This document shows positions 15,830 through 23,125 of a DNA stretch of 36,882 bases, piece after piece (position 1 is the stretch's first letter; each line of letters begins with the position of its first letter). Location of the stretch: NCBI GenBank assembly GCA_949744165.1, contig CATJWG010000158.1:1-36882 (forward strand), read 5' to 3'. The notes under the pieces are model-generated. The model worked only from the letters and a program-made list of their open reading frames with translations. It ran no database searches and was not told the DNA's origin. Source of the stretch: an uncultured Eubacteriales bacterium (GTDB lineage Bacteria > Bacillota > Clostridia > Oscillospirales > Oscillospiraceae). A program made the position numbers and the translations under genes.

Positions 15830-16005
15830 TCAAATGAAAGGCCGCTTCAGCGGCCTTTCATTTGAGGGGATATGGAAAAAGCGGCAAAGCCGTTTTTTCG
15901 AGGAGGTTTTGCTGCGCGAAAAGAATCTTTCCGAGGCGTATGTCCCCTGAAAAATAATTTGAATTTATTTGCGGCGTGCGCGCCGCGAACTCTGCATGTC
16001 TTGTC
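15830..16005 (+). repeat. Intergenic structured repeat, copy C
   Basis: Perfect 16-bp stem TCAAATGAAAGGCCGC-ttca-GCGGCCTTTCATTTGA, then GAAAAAGCGGCAAAGCCGTTTTTTCGAG, TTTTGCTGCGCG, TTTCCGAGGCGTATGTCCCCTGAAAAATAATTTGAATTTATTTGCGGCGTGCGCGCCGCGAACTCTGC, aligning to copies A and B. Confidence 0.65.
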
Positions 16006-16053
16006 AGACCCGAGACTTGCGGGGCTTTTCAACCACACTTGGGAGGTGCTTTT

Positions 16054-16941
16054 TTGTACGAATTGATAAGGGCTGGGGAGTGCAGCTATTACATTGACTG
16101 CCCTGCGAAGATTGGCGTTTACACCGTCGCGGCGGATGCGGTCTGGCTCATAGACAGCGGCGGGGATAAGGACGCCGGTCGCAGGGTCAAAAAAATCCTT
16201 GACGCCGAGGGCTGGACCCTTCGCGGAATTATCAACACCCACGCCCATGCCGACCACACCGGCGGAAACGCCTGGCTGCAAAAGCAGTATAGCTGCAAGG
16301 TCTTTGCCTGCGGAGTCGAGAGCGCGATTGCCCGCCGGCCCGAGCTGGAGCCGGCGCTGCTCTATGGCGGCCGTCCCTTCGGCGAGCTGCGGCACAAGTT
16401 TCTCATGGCCCAGCCGAGTGAGGCCCGTGACGTAAGCAATCCCGATTTTCCACCCGAGCTGGAGCTTATCGACCTGCCGGGGCACTATTTCGACATGACC
16501 GGCGTGCGCACGCCGGACGGCACCATGTTCCTGGCAGACTGCGTGAACAGTCCCGCCACTTTGGCCAAATACCGCGTCGGCTACATCTACGACGTGGAAA
16601 AATACCTGCAAACGCTGGATAAGGTGGAAAGCATGACCGCGCCGCTGTTCGTCCCCGCGCACGCGCCGGCCTGCGCTGACATGGGCGAGCTGGTTCGCCT
16701 AAACCGCGCGGCGGTGTACGCTGTCGCGGACGCGGTGCTGGAGATATGCCTGGGCGGCATTGACTTCGAACGTCTGCTCAAGGCGGTGTTTGACCGCTTC
16801 GGCCTTACAATGAGCTTCGAGCAGTACGTGCTTGTCGGCAGCACGCTGCGCTCATATTTGAGCTGGCTGGCCGACGGCGGCAGGGTCTCGGCTGAGATTT
16901 CGGACAATATGCTCATCTGGAAAACTGCGGAAAATGTCTGA
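16054..16941 (+). CDS. MBL fold metallo-hydrolase
   Basis: GIINTHAHADHTGGNAWLQ (HxHxDH), DLPGHYFDMTGV, MFLADCVNSP. Likely TTG start at 16054 after a GGGAGGTG SD; the upstream ORF extension lies in repeat DNA. Confidence 0.9.
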   Translation: MYELIRAGECSYYIDCPAKIGVYTVAADAVWLIDSGGDKDAGRRVKKILDAEGWTLRGIINTHAHADHTGGNAWLQKQYSCKVFACGVESAIARRPELEPALLYGGRPFGELRHKFLMAQPSEARDVSNPDFPPELELIDLPGHYFDMTGVRTPDGTMFLADCVNSPATLAKYRVGYIYDVEKYLQTLDKVESMTAPLFVPAHAPACADMGELVRLNRAAVYAVADAVLEICLGGIDFERLLKAVFDRFGLTMSFEQYVLVGSTLRSYLSWLADGGRVSAEISDNMLIWKTAENV

Positions 16942-17215: not shown

Positions 17216-18536
17216 GCTTGGTACGATGCCGATAGGCCGGCTGCTGATAACGATGTCGGTGCCGATGATGATATCAATGTTTGTCCAGGCGCTGTACAAC
17301 ATGGTAGACTCCATGTTCGTCGCGCGGCTGAGTGAAAACGCTCTGACCGCGGTATCGCTGACCTTTCCGCTGCAAAACATCATGAACGCCATAGCCGTCG
17401 GCACTGGCGTGGGCGTCAGCGCGATGGTCTCCCGCTCGCTCGGCGAGGGCGATGGACGACGCGCAGAGCGGGCGGCAAACGTTCAGGTTACGCTCTCGGC
17501 GCTCTACGCGGTGATTTTCGCCGCCGTCGGCCTGCTCTGCTCCCGCAGCTTTTTTGAGCACCAGACGGACGTGGCGGAGATTATCGCCTACGGGCACGAT
17601 TACATGCTGATAGTGTGCGTGTGCGCGGTTGGCATGTTCTACGGGCAGAACTTTGAAAAGCTGCTCGTTGCCACGGGCAGCAGCGCGCAGTCGATGGTCA
17701 GTCAGGCGGCGGGCGCTGTGATAAACATCATTTTCGACCCCCTGCTTATCTTCGGCATCGGCCCCTTCCCAAGCCTCGGCGTCTCCGGCGCAGCCTGGGC
17801 CACGGTGCTGGGCCAGTGTGTCTCGGCCCTGCTGGCACTTTTCTTTAACCTGCGCTGCAACCACGCAACGCGCTTTCGTGCGAAAAGTATGCTCCCCGAC
17901 CCCGAAACCCTGCGCGGCATCTTCGCCGTGGGACTGCCCTCGATGATAACCGTTGGCCTGGGCTCGGCAATGTCGTATCTGATGAATCAGATATTTCTCG
18001 GCTTCAGCACAACGGCCGTGGCCGTGTTTGGAATCTGGATAAAGATGCAGAGCTTCGGCTTCATGCCTGTGTTCGGCCTGAATAACGGCACGATTGCGAT
18101 ATACTCCTTCAACTTCGGCGCAAAGCAGTATGACCGCGTGCGCGCGACGCTGCGCCTGGCGCTGATGGTCGGCATAGGCGTCACCGTTGCTTGGGCGCTT
18201 ATGTACGAGCTCCTGCCGGTGACAATGCTGCGGCTGTTCCGTGCATCGGACTACATGCTGTCCATAGGCGTGACGGCGCTGCGGCTTTGCTCGGCATCCC
18301 TGCCGCTGGGAGCCTGCTGCGTGGTCCTCTCCTCCTGCTTCCAGTCGCTGGGCTGTGCGCGCTATACGCTGCTGCTAAACCTCATGCGCCAGCTCATCAT
18401 TCAGGTACCCGCCGCATGGCTGCTCGCGCTCGGCGGACGGCTCGAGCCGGTATGGCTCGCCCCCCTGATAGCCGAGGCCACCGCCGCCGCACTCGCGGTA
18501 GTGCTCAGCCGAAGGGTCATGAGGACCCTAAACTGA
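17196..18536 (+). CDS. MATE family efflux transporter
   Basis: LGTMPIGRLLITMSVPMMISMFVQALYNMVDSMFVARL and a multi-TM pattern of about 12 helices. Confidence 0.92.
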   Translation: MERSQDKLGTMPIGRLLITMSVPMMISMFVQALYNMVDSMFVARLSENALTAVSLTFPLQNIMNAIAVGTGVGVSAMVSRSLGEGDGRRAERAANVQVTLSALYAVIFAAVGLLCSRSFFEHQTDVAEIIAYGHDYMLIVCVCAVGMFYGQNFEKLLVATGSSAQSMVSQAAGAVINIIFDPLLIFGIGPFPSLGVSGAAWATVLGQCVSALLALFFNLRCNHATRFRAKSMLPDPETLRGIFAVGLPSMITVGLGSAMSYLMNQIFLGFSTTAVAVFGIWIKMQSFGFMPVFGLNNGTIAIYSFNFGAKQYDRVRATLRLALMVGIGVTVAWALMYELLPVTMLRLFRASDYMLSIGVTALRLCSASLPLGACCVVLSSCFQSLGCARYTLLLNLMRQLIIQVPAAWLLALGGRLEPVWLAPLIAEATAAALAVVLSRRVMRTLN

Positions 18537-18550
18537 AAAAAATTACTCAT

Positions 18551-18618
18551 ACTACCACAATAGTGTTGACAAGCTCACACTATTGTGGTAGTATCGCGTT
18601 GTAAACTATTGCAATAGT
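18551..18618. promoter_or_regulatory. Triple BlaI-like operator overlapping the blaI promoter
   Basis: ACTACCACAATAGT (18551-18564), ACTATTGTGGTAGT (18579-18592), ACTATTGCAATAGT (18605-18618), all ACTA-N6-TAGT. Promoter TTGACA 18566-18571, N17, TAGTAT 18589-18594. Confidence 0.75.
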
Positions 18619-18640
18619 TTGAAGTAAAGGATTTGATGCT

Positions 18641-19012
18641 ATGGCTGTAAAACTCTTTGACTCGGAACTGAAGGTTATGGACGCGCTGTGGCGGCGGGGC
18701 GATATGACCGCCAAACAGCTTTCGGACATTCTCAAGGATGAGACCGGCTGGAACATGAACACGACCTACACGGTGATAAAAAAATGCGTGGCCAAGGGCG
18801 CGATTGAGCGCATGGAGCCGAATTTTCGCTGCCGCGCGCTTATCACGAAGGAGGACGCACAGGACGCGGAAACCGACGAGCTGATAGGCAAGCTCTACGA
18901 CGGCTGCGCCGATAAGCTTTTTGCCGCGCTGCTGGACAGGAGAAAGCTAAGCGGCGTGGAGATTGCCAGGCTCAAGGCACTGGTCGCGGAGCTGGATGAG
19001 GTGGGAAAATGA
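18641..19012 (+). CDS. BlaI/MecI/CopY family transcriptional repressor
   Basis: LFDSELKVMDALWRRGDMTAKQLSDILKDETGWNMNTTYTVIKKCVAKGAIER. Confidence 0.94.
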   Translation: MAVKLFDSELKVMDALWRRGDMTAKQLSDILKDETGWNMNTTYTVIKKCVAKGAIERMEPNFRCRALITKEDAQDAETDELIGKLYDGCADKLFAALLDRRKLSGVEIARLKALVAELDEVGK

Positions 19013-21336
19013 CGCTCGCGCAGATGAGCCTGACAGGCGGCGTGATGGCCGCAGCGGTCATAGTCATCCGCGCGCTGACGCGTGGCAGGCTGCCGAGGCA
19101 AACCATTCTGCCGCTGTGGTACGCGGTGCTGGCGCGGCTGCTTGTGCCGTTTTCGCTGCCCTGCGCGTGGAGTGCTTACACGCTTCTGGCAAGACTGCGT
19201 GTTTCTCCCGACATACCCGACCCGCATGTCACCGTTCCCGCGCCCGCCGCGGCTGTAATTGCTCCCGCCGTCCCTGCTGTGAATACACTGCCCACCGCGC
19301 CGGAGGCTCCGTGGCTCTCCATTGACCCGTGGATGGCGGTATGGCTGCTGGGCGCTGCATGCTGCGCGGCCTTCTTCACCGCGGCCTATATCCGCTGCCG
19401 CCGGCGCTTCGCGGAGTCGCTGCCGGCGGAGGGCGATCGCGTCCACCGCTGGCTGGACACGCACCGGCTTGTCCGCCGCCTTAATCTGCGGCAGTCCGAT
19501 CGCGTGCGCGCCCCGCTGACTTACGGCGTGCTGCATCCCGTGATACTTCTGCCACGGGACTTTGACTGGGACGAGGCGGAAAGCACGAAGTACGTGCTTG
19601 AGCATGAGTACGTGCATGTTCGCCGCTTCGACGCGGCAGTTAAGCTTCTGCTCACAGCCGCGGTGTGCCTGCACTGGTTCAATCCGCTGGCGTGGTGCGT
19701 ATACGTGCTGACAAACCGCGACATCGAGCTTTCATGCGACGAGGCGGTGCTGCGACGTTTCGGGCCCGAGGCAAAATCGGCATACGCCATGGCTTTAATC
19801 CGCATGGCCGGCTCCGGAGACGGTCCGGCCCCGCTCTACAGCGGCTTTGGAAAAAGCGCTGTGGAAGAAAGGATTACTGCAATTATGAAAATGAAAAAGA
19901 CATCTTTCGCGGCGCTGCTTGTCGCCGCCTGCCTGCTCGCGGGTGTAACGACGGCGTTCGCGACCTCCACCGCGGCCGACATTGAGGACCGCGACCGCGC
20001 GGCCAACGCCCAGACCGTCACCGCGACTGACACCGTGATGTCCTACACGGACGAAAACGGCAAGATATGGTACAGCGAGGACGGGGGTAAGTCCTTCATA
20101 TCTGAGGAGGAATACAACGCCCTTTACCCTGACAGCGACGTGGAGTGGTGGACCTATGAGGAATACTCCGCATGGCTGGAAAACGAAAGGGTACTGCTGC
20201 AAGAGATGCTCGGCGAGCGCGGCTGGACCGGTGGACGCGGCGAGTTCGTCTGGACGCAGGAGATTATTAACGAAACCATCGCCCTTTATGAGGAGATTTT
20301 GGAGCAGATAGGCCGCGGAGTGCTGGTATCCAAGACAGTCAATGGCTCGGAGGACACCATGCTCATGCAGGGCATCGACGACATGCTGCTGGGCGTTGGC
20401 GAGAGCGGCGTTTCCGCGGCGGATTTTGCCGAGTACGCGCCCTTTGGGCTCGAGTGGGACGAAGCGCAGAAGGCGCTGTTTTACAACGGCGAGAGGGTGC
20501 GCTACTTCCTCGACGGGGCGGAGGTTGACGACTTCGGGGGCATGGCGGTACGCCTTGAGTACGCCGACCGTGAGCTGGAGGGCGAGCTTGACCTGCGCGC
20601 CGTGCGGCAGCGGGTGGACAACGCCGACGGCAGTTACGACCTCATGGGTCCGCTGCTGCGTCTGGAAAAGTGCCCCGAGGGGATGTTTGACGAGCGCGCT
20701 TCCTCGTCTCCCGCGCTGGCGCAGGCTACGGCGGACATCTATTTCCGTGAGCTTTCCGCCGAGACCAACGCGGAGACGGAGAAGCTGCTGGAAAAGTACG
20801 CCCCCTTCGGCCTGAGCTGGCGCTCGCACCCCGTCACGGGCGAGCTGAGCATGAGCTGGAACGGCAAGACCGTGCACAGCCTGTTCGACAGCGTGGAGCA
20901 GGTGTGGATAGCCAACAACATGAACGGCACGGACCTTGAAGCAGGGGCGCTGGAGCTCGAGGGGGTGTACGAAAAGGGTAAGCTGACAGGTCTGCGGGAG
21001 GTGCAGGCACAGCCGGGCGCGGTGACGGCCGCGGAGCAGGAGCCGCCCGCCACGGGCGGGGTTACCGCCGTGGCGGAGGGCACGGGCGAGCCGGGCGGCA
21101 AGACCTTTGCGGAGATTTTTGAGAAATACGCGGCGTTTGGAATCAGCTACGTCGAGGCCGAGGGGGCCGGCGGCTCGGGGAATGTTTACCTGAACGGGCG
21201 GCTGGTCAGCCGCTTTGCCGACGCGAGGCCCGATGGCGGGGTGTTTACCTTTGATTCGGCGGACGAGGGCGGTTTGGCCGTACAGGCCGTATATGACAGC
21301 GCCGGAAAGCTGACGGGTGTCAGGGAGCTCGGGTAA
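19009..21336 (+). CDS. BlaR1-type M56 family metallopeptidase with C-terminal triplicated sensor-like domain
   Basis: TM segments, YVLEHEYVHVRRFD (HExxH), LTNRDIELSCDEAVLRR, YAMALIRMAG. C-terminal repeats with YA(P/A)FG...NG..V...(L/F).D. ATGA overlap with blaI. Confidence 0.9.
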   Translation: MTLAQMSLTGGVMAAAVIVIRALTRGRLPRQTILPLWYAVLARLLVPFSLPCAWSAYTLLARLRVSPDIPDPHVTVPAPAAAVIAPAVPAVNTLPTAPEAPWLSIDPWMAVWLLGAACCAAFFTAAYIRCRRRFAESLPAEGDRVHRWLDTHRLVRRLNLRQSDRVRAPLTYGVLHPVILLPRDFDWDEAESTKYVLEHEYVHVRRFDAAVKLLLTAAVCLHWFNPLAWCVYVLTNRDIELSCDEAVLRRFGPEAKSAYAMALIRMAGSGDGPAPLYSGFGKSAVEERITAIMKMKKTSFAALLVAACLLAGVTTAFATSTAADIEDRDRAANAQTVTATDTVMSYTDENGKIWYSEDGGKSFISEEEYNALYPDSDVEWWTYEEYSAWLENERVLLQEMLGERGWTGGRGEFVWTQEIINETIALYEEILEQIGRGVLVSKTVNGSEDTMLMQGIDDMLLGVGESGVSAADFAEYAPFGLEWDEAQKALFYNGERVRYFLDGAEVDDFGGMAVRLEYADRELEGELDLRAVRQRVDNADGSYDLMGPLLRLEKCPEGMFDERASSSPALAQATADIYFRELSAETNAETEKLLEKYAPFGLSWRSHPVTGELSMSWNGKTVHSLFDSVEQVWIANNMNGTDLEAGALELEGVYEKGKLTGLREVQAQPGAVTAAEQEPPATGGVTAVAEGTGEPGGKTFAEIFEKYAAFGISYVEAEGAGGSGNVYLNGRLVSRFADARPDGGVFTFDSADEGGLAVQAVYDSAGKLTGVRELG

Positions 21337-21388
21337 AGCCCTGCGCCCGCGGCGGAGTATTGGAAACATCGGAATAGTTGACAGAGAA

Positions 21389-21430
21389 AAGGGCCGCCCT
21401 TCGGGGGCGGCCCTTGGTTTTTATTTTTTT
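21389..21430 (+). terminator. Rho-independent terminator between blaR1-like gene and ppaC-like gene
   Basis: AAGGGCCGCCC-ttcgg-GGGCGGCCCTT followed by GGTTTTTATTTTTTT. Confidence 0.85.
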
Positions 21431-21490
21431 GTTGCATTTGTTGCAGCTATTTTTCGCGGGCGGTAGGAGTCCGGATAGAAAGGTGTTTTA

Positions 21491-23125
21491 TCAGCCCCAG
21501 ATGGCGGAGAGCATGGGAATTACCTGCTTCTTTCTTGAGATGACACCCGGAAGGAAGAAGGCGTTGTCCTCGCCGGGAACGTTGAACGCCTGGTGAATGG
21601 CCTCGCTGCTTCCCGCGCACAGGAGCAGCGAGCCCTCGCGCAGTATATCCGTGACCATGAGAACGGCAAACTCGTAGCTGTTTTTCATTCGCAGGTCCTC
21701 CAGGTACTCCATAAACTCATCCTGACGGTCGAGCATGGCGTCTGAGTCCACGCAGGTAATCTGGCTGACCGCCAGCGTATGGCCGGCTATATGGAACTGC
21801 TTGAGGTCGGAGCTCACAAGCTCCGGCACCGGCTTGCTCTCTCCGTAGGACGCGGAGAAAATTTCCTTTCCAAGCTCCTCGAGCGAGACGTTAGCAATCC
21901 TTGCCAGGCGCGCGGCAATCTCGCGGTCAAGCTGCGTACAGGTCGGAGACTTGAAAATAACCGTGTCGGAGAGTATCGCCGCGGCCATAAGCCCCGCCAT
22001 GCGCTCTGAGGGCATCACCCCACGGGCCTGATACATCGCCGCGATTATCGTAGTCGTGCTGCCGACAGGCTCGTTGCGCACAAAAACGGGGTTGGTGGTC
22101 TGTATGTCGGCCAGACGGTGATGGTCGATGATGCCGATAATCTCCGCCTGGTCAAGTCCGTTTACGGACTGGGAAATCTCGTTGTGGTCAACGAGCACGA
22201 CCTGCTTTTTGCGGTGGTGGAGTATGTGATAGCGGGACAGCGTGCCGGCAACCCTCTCATTTTCGTCGAGTATCGGATAGCTGCGATACCGGCTTTTGAG
22301 CATGGTGGCGCGCACATCGTCAACGTAGTCGTCAAGGTGGAACTTCACTGGGTCCTGGTCTGCGCACAGCTTGGACATCTGCGTGGCCTGATAGAGCATC
22401 CGCGCCGTGCGCACGGGGCCCATGGGCGTGGAGATGATGCACGTGTCGGTCGGTATTTCGTAGATGGACTGGTCCAGCTCGGCCTGGCAAACGATAACAC
22501 AGTTGACCCCGATATCCAGTGCACGGCGCACCATCTCCGGCTGCTCGCCGCAGATAACGATGCTGTCACGGTTTGAAAACAGAAGGTTTTCACGGCTCTG
22601 TGGCAGAGCAATGAGCACCTCACCCTTGATGCTGTCCACGTCCGCGCCGCGGCCGGCCTTGTTCCTGACCTTACCCTCGATGGCCCCCAGCAGGTTGAAC
22701 AGCGGCACCTCGTGCAGATAGGGGTCCTCGCAGGACTCCATGTTGTAGGTTGCCACGTCGCCTATGGACGCCATACCGTAGAGCGTGCCGTCGTCGTTTA
22801 TTATCGGCAGCACGCCGATGCCCTCGTCTGAGTGCAGCAGCGACCAGGCACGTGAGACCGTCGCGCCCTTGTTCAGGCAGGGCGGCGTGTCATAGTCCAG
22901 ATCACGAAGCTGCGCGCGCAGGTCCTTGACATACTCCGGCGGCTCAAAGCCGAAGCGCTCGAGCACAAGCTTTGTTTCGTCGCTGACAAGTCCCAGGCGC
23001 CCTGCCCTGTACTCGCTGTCTCCCAGCGCGTTTCTCAGCGCGGCATAGGCCATGGCCGAGACTATTGAGTCCGTGTCGGGGTTCTTGTGGCCAAGAACAT
23101 ATATGATTCCTTTGCTTTCCTTCAT
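21491..23125 (-). CDS. Manganese-dependent inorganic pyrophosphatase, family II, with CBS/DRTGG regulatory insert
   Basis: VLGHKNPDTDSIVSAMAYA, CBS-like regions, VVLVDHNE, GIIDHHRLADIQT, VGSTTTIIAAMY, LMAAAILSDTVIFKSPT. Confidence 0.93.
   Translation of the reverse strand: MKESKGIIYVLGHKNPDTDSIVSAMAYAALRNALGDSEYRAGRLGLVSDETKLVLERFGFEPPEYVKDLRAQLRDLDYDTPPCLNKGATVSRAWSLLHSDEGIGVLPIINDDGTLYGMASIGDVATYNMESCEDPYLHEVPLFNLLGAIEGKVRNKAGRGADVDSIKGEVLIALPQSRENLLFSNRDSIVICGEQPEMVRRALDIGVNCVIVCQAELDQSIYEIPTDTCIISTPMGPVRTARMLYQATQMSKLCADQDPVKFHLDDYVDDVRATMLKSRYRSYPILDENERVAGTLSRYHILHHRKKQVVLVDHNEISQSVNGLDQAEIIGIIDHHRLADIQTTNPVFVRNEPVGSTTTIIAAMYQARGVMPSERMAGLMAAAILSDTVIFKSPTCTQLDREIAARLARIANVSLEELGKEIFSASYGESKPVPELVSSDLKQFHIAGHTLAVSQITCVDSDAMLDRQDEFMEYLEDLRMKNSYEFAVLMVTDILREGSLLLCAGSSEAIHQAFNVPGEDNAFFLPGVISRKKQVIPMLSAIWG

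Follow-up and report, generated by a model that had tools for sequence, protein, structure and literature searches.

The standard teaching on BlaR1 is that it senses penicillin, and a gene such as the one described here is easily annotated as a regulator of beta-lactam resistance. The locus raises the question of what a BlaR1-type protein senses if its C-terminal half is not a penicillin-binding domain. It is located in a window of 36,882 nucleotides, which is the whole stretch of DNA analyzed, from an uncultured, gut-type Eubacteriales bacterium of the Oscillospiraceae (assembly GCA_949744165.1, contig CATJWG010000158.1). We consider it likely that the repressor gene and the protease gene at this locus form a self-contained, autoregulating module of the BlaI/BlaR1 type, in which the input domain has been exchanged and an envelope-related signal other than a beta-lactam is sensed.

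Organization of the operon

The operon contains the following features:

18566-18594, plus strand: sigma-70-type promoter, TTGACA-17-TAGTAT, 10 of 12 matches
18641-19012, plus strand: BlaI/MecI-type repressor gene, 123 amino acids, PF03965
19009-21336, plus strand: blaR1-like open reading frame, 775 amino acids, M56 membrane protease with a non-penicillin-binding C-terminal half
21389-21415, plus strand: intrinsic terminator 3' of blaR1, a strong terminator-like hairpin with a 12-bp stem and a T-rich tail

The repressor was assigned to PF03965 (Pfam, E = 4.4e-20, 72.6 bits versus a cut-off of 22.6), and MecI structures were sequence matches of it. The blaI stop codon and the start codon of the M56 gene overlap as ATGA, which points to translational coupling. 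The promoter was the sole promoter-like site in the region 18400-21550 (0.7 expected), and together with the terminator-like hairpin it suggests that blaI and blaR1 are probably transcribed as a bicistronic unit. The gene 3' of the operon is on the opposite strand and encodes a DHH/CBS protein, and no Rfam matches were obtained in the window. At the BlaI cleavage position, Ala-Leu aligned with the Asn-Phe type of known repressors, such that a bulky hydrophobic residue is kept at P1' but the Phe, which is nearly invariant among known BlaI proteins, is replaced. Cleavage by the M56 protein of the window is therefore not assured.

The earlier note had seen no beta-lactamase gene beside the pair, and we likewise found no dedicated one. 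A gene for an MBL-fold hydrolase (PF00753) is located at 15976-16941, about 1.7 kb upstream of the module; it lacks an operator of its own, and there is no sign that it is a beta-lactamase. Homologs lie near the module in 3 genomes, counting the window (the others at L115 2554-3441 and L014 2204-3082), and directly 5' of blaI in a same-genus genome. The survey of homologous neighborhoods that had been suggested covered 34 loci and revealed no conserved output gene next to the module.

The protease half

The features of the BlaR1-like protein are:

19012-19884, plus strand: M56 protease/transmembrane domain, residues 2-292, PF05569
20026-20373, plus strand: stalk, presumably extracytoplasmic, residues ~340-455 (~115 residues), with invariant columns
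20425-20649, plus strand: sensor unit 1 (slot-1 type), residues 473-547, from iterated HMM and unit tree
20782-20994, plus strand: sensor unit 2 (slot-2 type), residues 592-662, from iterated HMM and unit tree
21112-21321, plus strand: sensor unit 3 (terminal type), residues 702-771, from iterated HMM and unit tree

The identification of the N-terminal half as a BlaR1-type M56 protease with an HEYVH motif was confirmed by the match to PF05569 (Pfam, E = 1.5e-44, 152.8 bits versus a cut-off of 31), with HEYVH at residues 199-203 and ELSCD at residues 240-244. In the alignment, H199, H203, D208, E240, D244, Y259, and R288 corresponded to H201, H205, D210, E242, D246, Y261, and R294 of BlaR1, the zinc-ligand and catalytic-support residues of which have been described (PMC9834060). 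The BlaR1 protein of S. aureus aligned with the profile of the window protein across most of the membrane/protease part. A search of the PDB with the full-length model recovered BlaR1 structures at E ~1e-7 as the sole matches at E<=0.001, and the transmembrane/protease fragment of the model differed from BlaR1 by 2.8 A over 163 columns. A near-invariant residue, Phe280, is located 8 residues N-terminal to R288, in the same loop as the BlaR1 self-cleavage site F284, which is located 10 residues before R294. Judging from the alignment, Phe280 may be the counterpart of F284, with the loop alignment shifted by two.

No penicillin-binding domain detected in the C-terminal half

The C-terminal half had no family match in Pfam or NCBIfam and no significant sequence match in the PDB. 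A single SxxK motif was present in it (0.78 expected by chance) and K[TS]G was absent, in agreement with the earlier observation that the transpeptidase triad is missing. The score against the NCBIfam model for the BlaR1 beta-lactam sensor (NF000326) was 89.2 bits, below the equivalog cut-off of 400. As a positive control we used L001, the one further M56 protein that the assembly yielded, in which a transpeptidase domain was readily detected (PF00905, E = 8.2e-25, with STYK and KTG motifs), and the absence of such a domain from the window protein is therefore not a failure of the search. Structure prediction, which had been proposed as a check for a penicillin-binding fold, instead yielded units of an alpha plus six-strand type. 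A penicillin-binding fold was thus not found by Pfam, motif, or model. Similarities to Hemolysin II (E = 0.05) and to C. difficile CD630_05490 (E = 0.35) were not significant. It was also noted that L001 (1088-3231) holds a BlaI/BlaR1 pair of the canonical kind, in which the sensor is a transpeptidase domain.

A conserved stalk and three old unit types

The stalk, which connects the M56 protease to the sensor units, is characterized by the motif EWWTYEEYxxWLE ... FVWTQExIxETIAxYE and is better conserved than any other part of the alignment, the protease included (17 aligned homologs). An HMM search identified it in 28 M56 proteins. Neither the stalk nor the three-operator promoter described below had been marked in the earlier note.

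Repeat detection by iterated HMM placed the three units close to the positions given before. Pairwise scores between the units exceeded those of shuffled sequence by 6.6 to 11.3 s.d., and none of 2000 shuffles scored as high. Each unit of about 70 residues was modeled as a short helix followed by six strands (alpha+beta) on alignments of 13-17 sequences; unit 3 modeled alone reached a pLDDT of 84.9 and a pTM of 0.75. The unit folds gave no match at E<=0.001 against the PDB and viral proteins, and the unit family had no match in Pfam. In a tree of 56 units, with modest support at the deep forks, units 1, 2, and 3 of the window fell into three groups, each with the units that occupy the same slot in relatives. 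The domain had previously been called triplicated; the relationship between the three units stands, but a recent triplication is rejected by the slot-by-slot grouping with other species. The tree instead indicates three distinct unit types of old origin, which had differentiated before the lineage of the window, although they are repeats nonetheless. Unit 2 grouped with the single unit of another, mostly stalk-less, M56 subfamily.

Relatives and distribution

The units were identified in 19 of the 401 genomes of the family, and a unit-profile search of 391 genomes from across the class retrieved 5, the window genome included, such that they are rare beyond the family. Among the relatives that bear a name are Angelakisella massiliensis and metagenome-assembled genomes labeled Oscillospiraceae. 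The number of unit copies per M56 protein ranged from 1 to 4, and the reading frames were intact in the relatives. Some of the unit-bearing M56 proteins also contained an M23 peptidoglycan-hydrolase domain: L014 consists of M56, stalk, two units, and M23 (Pfam, 3.3e-29), and in L048 and L075 the M23 domain was recognized by reading the sequence. Stand-alone unit proteins, which were secreted or lipoprotein-like, were also found (L017, L060, L051). The same-genus homolog L012 contained about 200 additional residues that separate the M56 domain from the stalk (bases ~697-1320, residues ~233-440). In genome G476 (L120, 4390-6239), an M56 gene and a separate, adjacent open reading frame with two units were located next to a gene for a BlaI-like protein; the module may have been broken or split there.

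Predicted operators

Three candidate operators with the consensus ACTA-N6-TAGT overlap the near-ideal promoter 5' of blaI:

18551-18564, no strand assigned: operator O1, ACTACCACAATAGT, an exact site upstream of the -35 box
18579-18592, no strand assigned: operator O2, ACTATTGTGGTAGT, within the promoter spacer and overlapping the -10 box
18605-18618, no strand assigned: operator O3, ACTATTGCAATAGT, downstream of the promoter and ahead of the blaI start

O3 is the core of a perfect 18-bp palindrome. Pattern searches of the 2.35-Mb assembly, which is 87.5% complete, located the exact pattern ACTAYYRYRRTAGT three times, in all cases at the blaI promoter, compared with no occurrence of the reversed-pattern control. 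Of 31 blaI upstream regions from relatives, 16 likewise had three sites within 1 mismatch, against 0.03-0.2 sites per region after shuffling. In 14 related genomes, most of the operator sites found were located at the blaI gene of such a module. Operator pairs in G002 and G412 that seemed separate were actually located 5' of blaI at a contig end, and a few single one-mismatch sites elsewhere (e.g. in G404) look like chance.

The exact operator sites in the assembly pointed to no separate target gene, nor were ACTA-N6-TAGT operators found upstream of the blaI gene of the canonical pair. A wider regulon found no support: one-mismatch matches elsewhere in the genome, 6 per strand compared with 16 for the reversed control, were not above chance, and these counts therefore speak neither for nor against weaker targets. 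Operators of the TACA-N2-TGTA type were represented by two one-mismatch matches in the window, which is below chance. Provided that BlaI binds the predicted operators, the locus would be an operon of two genes that regulates itself, with no other target visible.

A second operator type, the palindrome TTCTA...TAGAA, was located 5' of blaI in L014, L048, L049, L050, L055, and L075. It belongs to the M23-bearing modules and their relatives, and the motif was recognized by eye only; a scan with one fixed 14-bp form did not register the sites because the spacing differs. Both operator types were present in four genomes (G031, G147, G208, G417), which suggests insulated parallel modules.

Comparison with known systems

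The module resembles the BlaR1/MecR1 and BlaI/MecI systems of S. aureus and B. licheniformis in the pairing of an M56 protease with a BlaI-type repressor, in the HEXXH...E motif and the conserved Asp, Tyr, and Arg, and in the repeated operators over the promoter. It differs from them in that the C-terminal half consists of a stalk and three non-penicillin-binding units, in that no beta-lactamase or PBP2a gene is linked, in the operators (ACTA-N6-TAGT as opposed to TACA-N2-TGTA), and in the Leu in place of the P1' Phe. A BlaR-type protease that lacks the beta-lactam sensor domain and still works, together with BlaI, is known from mycobacteria (BlaR, Rv1845c; PMC5473688), but that protein has no extracellular sensor domain whereas the window protein has a different, multi-unit one. 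In C. thermocellum, the paired GACTAT sites to which BlaI_1845 binds lie at its own operon only (PMC8457756). The ACTAT-type paired sites and their confinement to the own operon are shared with the window; unlike the window, the C. thermocellum BlaI_1845/BlaR1 operon contains two further genes, and the likeness rests on BlaI and the sites. Proteins that combine M23 and M56 have been mentioned (PMC9662197), and their extracytoplasmic domain, too, is not of the penicillin-binding kind; compared with the L014-type fusion, the window protein carries three units and lacks M23.

A model for signaling and its alternatives

From the layout and conservation of the sites, we infer that BlaI dimers on the three operators would hold the operon low in the resting state. 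By homology to BlaR1, the zinc protease would face the cytoplasm, with the stalk and the three units outside. The units may bind an envelope-related ligand or partner, or lose a resting contact, and the change would be passed through the stalk and the fourth helix to the protease, which would then inactivate BlaI and thereby raise expression of the operon. The signal acting directly on the protein would be one other than a beta-lactam, as the earlier note had supposed from the non-penicillin C-terminal half and the missing beta-lactamase neighbor. A cell-wall or surface ligand seems the most likely, since relatives add an M23 domain and the units occur in secreted or lipoprotein-like proteins, although the M23 fusion belongs to a side branch and lends the cell wall thin support. 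Since no separate target gene is visible, the output may be the raised sensor itself, or targets with weaker sites. More tentatively, and on balance doubtful to us, the units could represent an undescribed extracytoplasmic family that binds a non-beta-lactam envelope or surface ligand, with slot-specific units that read different features of the ligand, in a closed loop of which the sensor is the own main product.

Beta-lactams might still act indirectly, either through units that detect wall damage or muropeptides or through binding of a cytoplasmic peptidoglycan fragment to BlaI, as proposed for B. licheniformis. A peptidoglycan-derived dipeptide does bind BlaI/MecI (PMC3305447), and the M23 fusion in a relative and the functional sensor-less BlaR of mycobacteria (PMC5473688) fit this explanation as well, but a further BlaR1, canonical and with its transpeptidase domain, is encoded in the same genome, and the operators of the module were not found upstream of the blaI gene of that pair; we regard an indirect response as unlikely. 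The possibility that the unit array is mainly an effector, a surface domain for adhesion or wall binding that is displayed on a membrane protease in amounts set by BlaI and with no sensing, would account for the missing separate target and for the stand-alone unit proteins. It is harder to reconcile with a fully conserved protease active site and with a stalk that exceeds the protease in conservation, as would fit signal transmission, and we consider it highly improbable. That the C-terminal half is a degenerate, functionless sensor is scarcely credible: the dN/dS value was highest for unit 1, at 0.46, but all segments of the protein ranged from 0.21 to 0.46 against a same-genus homolog, well under 1 and with purifying selection apparent, and the unit types have been maintained across genera in intact frames. 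Our preferred reading is the autoregulating module with an exchanged input domain.

M56 proteins of the family mostly lack a transpeptidase domain

The missing penicillin-binding domain had been presented as a surprise, which was overstated given the mycobacterial precedent and the survey of the family. None of 28 M56 proteins, taken from the best matches of the family M56 search, contained a transpeptidase domain in Pfam, although some of the frames were cut by locus ends, and a domain near the C terminus may have gone unseen in those. Judged from these sequences, it is normal for M56 proteins of this bacterial family to have no transpeptidase domain. The general pattern is thus already known or ordinary; what is new here is the three operators over the promoter and a sensor domain family that is uncatalogued in the libraries searched. 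The literature searched contained no overview of the sensor architectures of M56 proteins. Since the M56 protease mostly carries other domains on the outside, annotation as BlaI/BlaR1 is a poor sign of resistance in this family, and the pattern points to a signaling scheme of one protease and many sensors. The family survey recorded up to 12 M56 matches per genome and open frames of up to 1696 amino acids, and the other domains among the 28 proteins were M23, DUF4825, DUF4829, and FG-GAP, once each, and Ig-like domains in two.
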